From contig CALDSX010000028.1 in NCBI GenBank assembly GCA_937924445.1, forward strand, positions 1 to 32,203: a stretch of 32,203 nt of DNA. The letters run 5' to 3'. Origin of the DNA: an uncultured Chthoniobacterales bacterium. GTDB taxonomy: Bacteria > Verrucomicrobiota > Verrucomicrobiia > Chthoniobacterales > CALDSX01. The position numbers and the translations under genes were made by a program. Positions 22,780 through 27,785 of this stretch are shown piece after piece (position 1 is the stretch's first letter; the number at the start of each line of letters is the position of its first letter). The notes below the pieces were generated by a model that ran no database searches, was not told where the DNA came from, and saw nothing but the letters and a program-made list of their open reading frames with translations.

Positions 22780-25224
22780 GTGAAATTCATCAAAACGAAC
22801 CTCGTCAAACCACCAGAAGCCTCTAGATCAATAGCAGAAATGGCCTCCCAAAAAACCTTTTTGCCTCTGGAGAGATCGACGACCGATGAAACTTTTTTGC
22901 CAAATCTAGAATTCATTCCTGCTCTCTTATCTTTCGACAAAAGGGAGCGCATCCAGTCATGGAATTTCGCCGAGGAAAGGATGTTTCATCGAGAGGCCAA
23001 GGAAACGATTGGCCGCCCACTCATGGAGCTAGGGATTTTAATCCAAGGCCCAGGCGGCCAAAAAAACACGCTTCTGAAGTCTGCCACGCAGCTGAGTGCC
23101 ACAGAGACGCAGGCACAGGTTACTCTTCCAGAAGGTCTCACACGCATTCTAGGGCTTCGAACGCTCAATTGTGGAAAAGACAGCAATGTCAACATTCTCA
23201 TCAGAGATCTTGGACCTGAGTTACGTGATCTGAAACGCAAAGAGCTCACCACATTCCTCTTCCCTGCCATTTCACTGGCAAGCGCGACTCAAAACTGGGA
23301 TGACATACTAGACAAAACACGGCAATTCTTTGGTGCTTCCTTCGCATTTATCTTCGAGATTAGGGACATCGAAGAAAAAAAACGCGTCCACTGCGTCGCG
23401 GCCAATGGAGGGGGTGGGCTCACATCCGTGCAACAGCTGCTGCAGTCTCTCTTAAGCAGCGATGAGGTGAGGCGTCGGCTCATTAAATCTGGCTTTATGA
23501 AAAGCAAACTCCCTGAATTTTACGGAAAGTTTGCGATCGCAGTCCAAGACTTGGGTGATGAGGAGAGCGCGCATCGCCGACTCCTTGTCTTGGTGCGCCC
23601 GAGTGATACCGCACCTTGGTCCACGGTGGATGCCGCTGTTTTGGCCGACTTTACGCAGTTAGTCTGTTGCATATCTAGCTTCATGCTCATCCCATCCCGG
23701 CGAACAAGCTCCAACAAATATTTGGAAAGCATCATGCGGTCGTCCGATCTGGGCATTCTGTTTATCGAAAAACGCGACGGAACAGTCATCATGAGTCTAG
23801 CCAACCGAATGTTTTTCGAATTTTTTGGCATCGAAACGGCTGAATTTTCAGGCGGCAGTATCAAGGCGTTGGAACAGCATCTTCTCTCCTGCGTGGTGGA
23901 TCCCGCTAATGCCCGGGAAAATCTGATCTCCCATTTTGAGTCCGCAGACGAACGATCAGGGGAGTTGACCACAAAACTACCCACTCATCGTATTCTTCAG
24001 GTCTTTTCCGCCCCTTCAATAGAAGGGGAAAAGAATTTCAGCCGGATCATTCTTTTCCGTGACATCACGCGCGATAAGGAGATTGAACAACAACTTCTGC
24101 ATTCGCAAAAAATGGAGAGTATCGGCACGCTTGCCGGCGGCATTGCACATGATTTCAACAATCTCCTCACCACCATGCTTGGATACGCCGAGTTGCTGAA
24201 GGCGGAGCTGCCTCCCGGCCAGCCATCTCATGTAAAGGTCGAGCAGATCGAGCGCTCAGCTCGACGTGCAGCTGAACTCACAAGCAATCTCCTTGCCTTT
24301 TCCAGGAGAAAACCCTCGCAAACAACGGTTTGTGACCTCGGCGAGCTTGTCAAAGAGGCCATCGCCCTCGTGCGGTTCTCCATGCCAAGCTCCATCGAAA
24401 TAAAAACCAACATCGCCCAAAACATTCCATTTGTTGAAGCTGATCCAACTCAAATCCAGCAGGTGCTCATCAACTTGATGCTCAATGCTCGCGACGCCCT
24501 ACCTGAAAAGGGTGGGTGCATCGTTGTCTCAACTGAGGCCGGAGAGGATTCAATGAATCCGGTTATAAAAGGAGGACCGAGGTATGCCGTCATTGAAGTA
24601 GAGGACAACGGGAGTGGTATTCCAAAGGAGTGTCTTCCGAGAATTTTTGAGCCCTTCTACACGACCAAAGAAGTCGGCAAGGGAACGGGCCTCGGACTGG
24701 CTATGGTTTACGGTATCGTTAAAGGGCACGGTGGCTTTATCGAGGTCTCCAGTGCACCCGATTGTGGAAGCATATTTTCGGTTTTTTTGCCCGAAACCAA
24801 GAAACCACCCCTGCCACCGATGCTCACGCCACAGCATGTTGAGCAGACGGTAAAAACCGCAGCGCATGTCCTTGTGGTGGACGACGAACCCGACCTCCTC
24901 CAATTCTGTCGTTCCGCACTGGAACCCCTCTGCGGGCAGGTACAAACCGCTTCCGATGGTCTCGAGGCGCTAACTCTGGTAGAGGCTGCCCCTGAGGAAT
25001 TTGACCTCGTTATTCTTGACCTCACGATGCCTCGTATGGGCGGGGTGGAGTGTTTCTACAGGATGCGACGATTAAGCCCGCAGCTAAAAATAATTATAAC
25101 CAGTGGTTATAATGTTAAAGGCGGTCCGGAAGCTTTACTTGAAAGCGGGGCGGTGGCTTTTCTCCAAAAACCTTACAGCGTCAATTCCCTCATCAAAACG
25201 GTAAAAAACCAACTTAAGGGCTAA
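22780..25224 (+). CDS. Hybrid sensor histidine kinase with C-terminal receiver domain
   Basis: 814 residues from GTG at 22780; an ATG at 22840 is an equally possible start, and neither has a good ribosome binding site. An N-terminal PAS-like region (about 45-130) is followed by a GAF-like region (about 155-300) and a second PAS-like segment (about 315-430). The HisKA box has H457 (GGIAHDFNNLL). The HATPase domain has N (LMLNARDALPEKG), DNGSGIP and FEPFYTTKEVGKGTGLGLAM. The receiver domain (about 690-805) has VVDDEPD, phospho-acceptor D747 (VILDLTMPRMGG) and a conserved Lys (LQKPYS). No transmembrane helix is evident, so it is probably cytosolic. No adjacent regulator gene, so it is an orphan hybrid. 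The 3' end overlaps coaD by 4 bases. Confidence 0.92.
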   Translation: MKFIKTNLVKPPEASRSIAEMASQKTFLPLERSTTDETFLPNLEFIPALLSFDKRERIQSWNFAEERMFHREAKETIGRPLMELGILIQGPGGQKNTLLKSATQLSATETQAQVTLPEGLTRILGLRTLNCGKDSNVNILIRDLGPELRDLKRKELTTFLFPAISLASATQNWDDILDKTRQFFGASFAFIFEIRDIEEKKRVHCVAANGGGGLTSVQQLLQSLLSSDEVRRRLIKSGFMKSKLPEFYGKFAIAVQDLGDEESAHRRLLVLVRPSDTAPWSTVDAAVLADFTQLVCCISSFMLIPSRRTSSNKYLESIMRSSDLGILFIEKRDGTVIMSLANRMFFEFFGIETAEFSGGSIKALEQHLLSCVVDPANARENLISHFESADERSGELTTKLPTHRILQVFSAPSIEGEKNFSRIILFRDITRDKEIEQQLLHSQKMESIGTLAGGIAHDFNNLLTTMLGYAELLKAELPPGQPSHVKVEQIERSARRAAELTSNLLAFSRRKPSQTTVCDLGELVKEAIALVRFSMPSSIEIKTNIAQNIPFVEADPTQIQQVLINLMLNARDALPEKGGCIVVSTEAGEDSMNPVIKGGPRYAVIEVEDNGSGIPKECLPRIFEPFYTTKEVGKGTGLGLAMVYGIVKGHGGFIEVSSAPDCGSIFSVFLPETKKPPLPPMLTPQHVEQTVKTAAHVLVVDDEPDLLQFCRSALEPLCGQVQTASDGLEALTLVEAAPEEFDLVILDLTMPRMGGVECFYRMRRLSPQLKIIITSGYNVKGGPEALLESGAVAFLQKPYSVNSLIKTVKNQLKG

Positions 25225-26463: not shown

Positions 26464-26789
26464 ATTCTTATAAACAAAGATGGATCCAAAAGGACTGTGG
26501 GTTGATCGAAGGAGAGTTTTCGCCGCATTTCAAACTCGTGTCAACATCTCTTCCGCAGCGCACATGAAATCAGGCACCTCTTTTCTGACTATCACGCGGT
26601 TTTCATTCTTCACACGCCGCCTTAATTCGCACTTGCAGTTGCAGCGATACACGTCATGGTGCAAAGGTATTTTGTGAACTATTGAGCAATTCACTGGACC
26701 CGCTCCAGCAAGGATCATTAGTAAATAGTTCCGCGTCCGATGGGGATATATCAAAACACCAAGCAGCTAAATTATTTTTAAACTCTGTC

Positions 26790-27785
26790 ATGATTTTGTT
26801 TCGCAAACCACGACGCTGGTGGGGTATTGGCTTGGGAGCTGGACTTGTGGGAGCCCTAGCTGTCGCGGTGCGCCATTCGTTAAGTGGCGGGGAGCGGTCG
26901 AGGATCCCAGACAGTATTTCTCCCGCGATATTCGCTACACGTGTGGCTCGGACGGCCCATGGCCAAATTGTTTTCCATGAGTCGGGCGCTGGTACACCCT
27001 TAATCTTTCTCCATGGCGCTCACCTTGGGGGATCCTCTTACGAATGGTCCAAGGTGTATCCTTCGTTTGCTGAAACCAGACACGTTTTTGCTCCAGATCT
27101 GATCGGTTTCGGGGAGTCCGAACGTCCCGCAGAACTGCTCAGCCCTTTCGACCATGTGCGGGCTCTTGTTGAGTTTATCAGTCAGATCTGTACGAACAGG
27201 CCTTGCTCGGTTGTTGCCTCGCACTTTGGAGGTGCAATTGCCGTGCTCCTGGCCTCTCAACATCCTGATCTGGTTCAAAAACTCATCCTCTTTGCACCCA
27301 CCGGTTTCTCTGAGCGCGTTTGCCTTTCGCCCTCGTCGGCCTCTAAACTCGCCGGCCGTATTCCCGGGATAAAGAGTCTGATTTACAAACAACTCACAAC
27401 CAGGCAGGCTTTAAAGCATTGGCTCAACAGAGAAGGCTTTCGAGGCGCACAAGAAACTGCCGCTGAAGTCGTGGAGGTTTTCTATAATTGCGCCCGCCAA
27501 TACCGTGCCGATGTGGCAGGGGTGGCCGTCCTGGCAAAAAGCGGACTATCCTTCGATTTTGAAAAACGTCTAGCGACGCTACCGCTGCCTGTCGCTCTTC
27601 TTTGGCCGGCGCAGTCAGCCTCTTTCCCTCTGCAACGAGCCAAACATATCCTCTCCTTGTCCCCGCCTGGCAGCACCTTGGATGTGCTGCCAGAATGTTC
27701 TCTGCTCGCCCCCATTGAAGCACCCAAAATAGTCGCGCAGGCTGTTTCATCCGCCCTCGACCTCTCAATCCGGACAGATTGCTGA
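26790..27785 (+). CDS. Membrane-anchored alpha/beta-hydrolase-fold protein lacking the catalytic triad
   Basis: 331 residues from the ATG at 26790; an in-frame TTG at 26682 would add 36 residues. A basic N-terminus (MILFRKPRRW) precedes one transmembrane helix (WGIGLGAGLVGALAVAV), then the hydrolase fold starting at about residue 55. The oxyanion region (LIFLHGAHLGGSS) and strand-helix patterns are clear. At the nucleophile elbow, where G-x-S-x-G-G is expected, the sequence is A-S-H145-F-G-G, so the Ser position is His. The usual acid site reads WPAQSAS without Asp, and the His-loop (normally GH) reads ECSLLAPIEAP without His. All three positions appear lost, so it is probably a non-enzymatic binding or scaffold protein. 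Function unknown. Confidence 0.82.
   Translation: MILFRKPRRWWGIGLGAGLVGALAVAVRHSLSGGERSRIPDSISPAIFATRVARTAHGQIVFHESGAGTPLIFLHGAHLGGSSYEWSKVYPSFAETRHVFAPDLIGFGESERPAELLSPFDHVRALVEFISQICTNRPCSVVASHFGGAIAVLLASQHPDLVQKLILFAPTGFSERVCLSPSSASKLAGRIPGIKSLIYKQLTTRQALKHWLNREGFRGAQETAAEVVEVFYNCARQYRADVAGVAVLAKSGLSFDFEKRLATLPLPVALLWPAQSASFPLQRAKHILSLSPPGSTLDVLPECSLLAPIEAPKIVAQAVSSALDLSIRTDC

Follow-up and report, generated by a model that had tools for sequence, protein, structure and literature searches.

A conserved α/β-hydrolase-fold family of Chthoniobacterales with a predicted membrane anchor and replaced catalytic positions

Does a gene that reads as an α/β-hydrolase, and in which the nucleophile, the acid and the base all appear replaced, encode a maintained protein, and if so, what could that protein do? 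The locus that raises this question lies in a stretch of 32,203 nucleotides from an uncultured Chthoniobacterales bacterium, referred to here as the window. Its frame, which the original prediction took to be open throughout, runs uninterrupted from the ATG at 26790 to the TGA at 27785 of the forward strand (331 residues) and is open by chance in none of 2000 base shuffles; its codon-position GC resembles that of its neighbors. An earlier start is possible for the same frame (TTG at 26682); the ATG at 26790 is preferred, as it matches the start region of the orthologues. The features of the gene are the following:

26790..27785, + strand: α/β-hydrolase-fold pseudoenzyme gene, 331 aa (open frame, Pfam, 87 orthologues, AlphaFold2 model)
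26829..26882, + strand: N-terminal glycine-zipper hydrophobic helix, residues 14-31 (near-invariant G12, G14, G16, G18, G21; helix in the model)
26907..26933, + strand: conserved linker PDxISPAIF, residues 40-48 (family alignment)
27012..27062, + strand: oxyanion segment from H75 and family signature SSYEWSKVYP, residues 82-91 (residue conservation)
27093..27119, + strand: PDLIGFGES motif, residues 102-110 (invariant D103, G106, G108, E109, S110)
27216..27233, + strand: nucleophile elbow A143-S144-H145-F146-G147-G148, with the His145 codon CAC at 27222-27224 (alignment and AlphaFold2 model)
27312..27575, + strand: cap (lid) region, residues 175-262 (identity to cyanobacterial members)
27615..27617, + strand: acid position, Ser276 replacing Asp (alignment with active relatives)
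27702..27704, + strand: base position, Leu305 replacing His (alignment with active relatives)

By profile match and by fold, the product belongs to the α/β-hydrolase superfamily. It matches Abhydrolase_1 (E=3.9e-16) and Abhydrolase_6 (E=1.2e-13) of Pfam, both well above the gathering scores, and an AlphaFold2 model built with 60 relatives reaches a mean pLDDT of 88.4 and a pTM of 0.85. In this model, strand β5 (residues 139-144) is followed by helix αC (145-157), the helix of the elbow, which is started by residue 145 and not by S144. A phmmer search against the PDB aligns VVASHFGGAIA with VVAQDWGTALA of haloalkane dehalogenase, ASHFGG standing without gaps on the AQDWGT elbow and His145 on the nucleophile Asp; as the gapless alignment and the model both place residue 145 at the elbow, a register shift that would make Ser144 the true nucleophile is judged unlikely. 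Aligned with active relatives (n=16; nucleophile S or D in 16/16, acid D in 12/16, base H in 16/16), the window protein has His145 at the nucleophile, Ser276 at the acid and Leu305 at the base position, and no Asp or Glu at the alternative acid site after β6, which is F168. It thus lacks what defines the catalytic members of the superfamily: an S, D or C nucleophile at the elbow, an acid after β7 or β6, and a His base. The original prediction, of a hydrolase fold that is kept (as its structural neighbors, described below, also indicate) with a His at the Ser position of the elbow, no Asp in the acid strand and no His in the final loop, is borne out on each of these points.

The replacements are a property of a whole family. 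An order-wide search (213 genomes) finds 87 orthologues, mostly at 37-47% identity, in Chthoniobacterales/Spartobacteria of the Verrucomicrobiota, including Chthoniobacter flavus Ellin428 (from a named scan). Class- and phylum-wide samples contain no orthologues outside Chthoniobacterales, the viral contigs searched contain no relative, and a viral fold library yields generic hydrolases only. No second genome represents the genus or the family of the window's organism in the collection, and the single-sequence genome scan returned no relatives. About half of the order's genomes do not have the gene, so its role must be dispensable in some lineages; it is missing from two reduced genomes of 0.9 Mb (G209, G211) and kept by larger-genome congeners of the same genus. 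No NCBIfam model reaches its cut-off, and a description of the family was not found in the literature; the family is undescribed and covered by no curated family.

In the alignment of 88 sequences, Gly occupies the nucleophile position in 86, the exceptions being the window (His) and one other sequence (Asp). The base position is His in none, nor does any Chthoniobacterales sequence have a His three residues beyond it; at the acid position Ala, Ser and Pro prevail, the four sequences with Asp lacking both the base and the nucleophile Ser, and the alternative site after β6 carries no Asp or Glu. The single elbow Asp occurs in the motif ASDISAALA (L018, genome G210), which likewise lacks acid and base and whose sister L014 has Gly. 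His145 is thus private to the window: as it is not conserved, it is rejected as a functional residue of the family and no function can be built on it, so that a special His chemistry is no longer hinted at. From these residues, the family is predicted to be unable to hydrolyse by the standard mechanism. The missing triad does not prove inactivity, as Ser144 is still conserved and H75 still invariant.

A sister family occurs in cyanobacteria: a named scan matched one Nodosilinea contig, and when the phylum was sampled, 55 of 194 genomes had matches at E <= 1e-40, often two each. Its members carry the signature SSxYEWSKVYP, an A-S-S elbow and an AQQ cap helix. Nine residues (T55, G58, E85, S87, Y90, S144, P170, Y199 and Q237) are common to both phyla and absent or nearly absent in active relatives, E85, S87 and Y90 being conserved to at least 94% in both. 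The part of the cap formed by residues 226-262 (conserved E226, A235, Q237, A240, A243) has a mean identity of 31% to cyanobacterial members, against 16% to active relatives. A maximum-likelihood tree separates the cyanobacterial family plus the Chthoniobacterales clade from the active relatives (98/96), save for one long-branched active row of unsure placement that falls inside the group (L222, o_L222), and a single branch sets off the Chthoniobacterales (95/78; recovered in 96% of bootstrap trees). In the 36 cyanobacterial rows, the nucleophile is Ser in 35, and acid and base are missing in all. Since these sisters keep the elbow Ser yet lack both partners, acid and base were probably lost first; stepwise loss, with the Ser following, is the simplest reading of the sequences, and it depends on the root, on which the direction of change hinges, a further long-branched row (y_L235) also being of unsure placement. 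Shared descent and an old transfer between the phyla are equally possible.

Some cyanobacterial copies depart from this pattern. One Nodosilinea genome holds three family copies, among them one paralogue in which Ala replaces the nucleophile (L182/L213, the contig C2 copy). Six genes with the motif HNFGGGAS (L250, L251, L253, L254, L255, L259) lie directly downstream of a gene resembling the HugZ/pyridoxamine-oxidase fold (named by eye), and this paralogue group is the only one with a conserved direct neighbor in the cyanobacterial neighborhoods. In Nostoc punctiforme, Npun_F5141 is a lipid-droplet-associated α/β-hydrolase of 310 aa, called a putative lipase, whose orthologues start at Met13 (PMC4500132); its length resembles that of the cyanobacterial members, and it is a candidate member by length only.

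The remaining Ser and His leave room for an enzyme that works through other residues, for example through Ser144, directly before the usual nucleophile, or through some other chemistry of the old pocket. Ser144 is found in 85/88 Chthoniobacterales and 33/36 cyanobacterial sequences and in 0/16 active relatives, and it is the one support for the different chemistry that the original prediction had offered as an option; the pocket-side motifs are also kept. However, three orthologues have Arg at this position, residue 144 lies within strand β5 in the model, 145 being the first of the helix, and neither the base, at its usual place or three residues on in Chthoniobacterales, nor a conserved acid at either site is there to serve it. 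We consider an enzyme of this kind unlikely.

The Chthoniobacterales proteins share a layout of a short basic segment, a glycine-zipper helix, the linker PDxISPAIF and then the hydrolase domain. The zipper, GxGxGxGLxGA from residue 12, is conserved across Chthoniobacterales and absent from the cyanobacterial relatives; the helix has a hydropathy of 1.8 in the window protein (family mean 2.05) and is wanting in L087, which has no clear helix, and in sequences cut by contig ends. Its flanks carry mean charges of +3.4 and +3.3 in the family, which do not decide its orientation. This conserved glycine-rich helix, a predicted anchor, lends support to the membrane tethering originally proposed. Glycine-zipper helices often mediate helix packing, a habit that would suit a protein that regulates or partners an active hydrolase, joined to it in mixed dimers through this helix. 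The membrane-anchored phospholipase PlaF forms dimers via its TM and juxtamembrane regions (PMC9132575), which points the same way. Against such a partnership, no active paralogue adjoins the gene, and the window's own genome holds one distant homologue only (28% identity); it can be given little credence.

The neighborhood of the gene shows a recurrent order outside the window. In 34 of the 65 loci carrying the gene, purM directly precedes it in the same orientation, frequently in the order purQ-purL-purF-purM-gene (names assigned from sequence by eye), with a median spacing of about 18 nt and overlaps of 1-4 nt in several, as is typical of genes predicted to be co-transcribed. This operon-like place points to joint expression with the purine-synthesis genes in many relatives and need not mean an activity in the purine pathway; cyanobacterial relatives were searched for a purM neighbor, and none was found. 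The window genome has lost the linkage, a purM-sized AIRS protein being encoded on contig C65; here the gene is flanked by ompH/skp and coaD at one end, and by a cupin-protein gene, fabH and plsX at the other (ompH, coaD, fabH and plsX named by eye). Farther upstream, past coaD and ompH on the opposite strand, 22780-25224 (+) encodes a hybrid histidine kinase (PAS, HisKA, HATPase and receiver domains).

Purifying selection on the family is strong: dN/dS is 0.03-0.16 in close orthologue pairs (pairs with saturated dS, which dominate the overall median, disregarded; the measure is for the relatives, not for the window's own lineage), and no order-wide match has an internal stop. The window protein retains 36 of 38 near-invariant residues, having lost two through Y62F and G145H, the latter the sole radical change. 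With catalytic positions replaced in 87 orthologues and selection evident in the relatives, the family has the marks of a maintained pseudoenzyme, as originally suggested. That the window copy is nevertheless decaying, with His145 a random change within it, is very improbable: its tree branch is 0.93 long, its purM neighborhood is lost and many relatives lack the gene, but the retained residues and the open frame of 331 codons argue against decay, as does its neighbor-like codon-position GC, and other orthologues have equally long branches.

The family is thus probably one of membrane-tethered, non-hydrolytic binding or scaffold proteins with an α/β-hydrolase fold; the maintained membrane pseudoenzyme of the original prediction is supported, and for the whole family, without His145 as a conserved feature, and of the functions that it named we infer a binding, scaffold or signalling role. 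On this reading, the glycine-zipper helix would fix the protein to the inner membrane and may also dimerise it, so that the hydrolase-fold body and cap sit at the membrane surface; there, a hydrophobic ligand or a partner protein could be bound, uncleaved, by the former substrate pocket together with the conserved cap helix. Acid and base were probably lost in an ancestor shared with the cyanobacterial sisters; Ser would then have given way to Gly among the Chthoniobacterales, and Gly to His in the window's lineage. A more far-reaching reading, tentative and on balance doubtful, is that of an ancient two-phylum family, soluble in its cyanobacterial members and tethered to the membrane in those of Chthoniobacterales, that lost its triad stepwise and acts as a lipid- or metabolite-binding membrane sensor, coupled to purine synthesis in Chthoniobacterales.

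Because these genes match the generic Abhydrolase_1, annotation as enzymes is to be expected, although for dozens of them the usual mechanism should be out of reach. Conserved Chthoniobacterales proteins and their Ser-keeping cyanobacterial sisters would form a natural series for the passage from an enzyme fold to a non-enzymatic protein, and the orthologue in Chthoniobacter flavus Ellin428 makes the reading testable.

Among known systems, the top Foldseek matches in the PDB are PlaF, epoxide hydrolases, CarC and HsaD (TM-score by target 0.73-0.85). PlaF of Pseudomonas aeruginosa (6i8w), the best of these hits, is a phospholipase A held in the membrane by a TM helix, with its catalytic domain on the periplasmic side (PMC9132575); like it, the window protein has a single N-terminal TM helix, predicted from sequence and model, and a lidded α/β-hydrolase domain. 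It differs in that PlaF has an S137-D258-H286 triad and PLA activity, all three positions being replaced in the window protein, at an identity of ~20%, and in that its own helix is a glycine zipper. The meta-cleavage product hydrolases CarC/HsaD, epoxide hydrolases and haloalkane dehalogenases have the same fold and cap insertion and are the best neighbors in sequence and structure, but they keep the S or D nucleophile, the acid and the His; in NCBIfam, the window protein scores 74 bits against the dehalogenase equivalog (cut-off 241) and 60 against that of HsaD (cut-off 400). The cyanobacterial homologues (for example L170 of Nodosilinea sp. LEGE 06152), which share the signature, the ASS/ASG elbow and the cap helix, differ in the retained Ser and in the N-terminal membrane helix, not seen in those inspected. 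The NDRG proteins are eukaryotic α/β-hydrolase pseudoenzymes maintained for other functions (PMC12132217), and the window family may be analogous to them, as a hydrolase fold without catalytic residues that is kept for another use; it has no Pfam Ndr match, however, and is a bacterial, predicted membrane-anchored and different sequence family.
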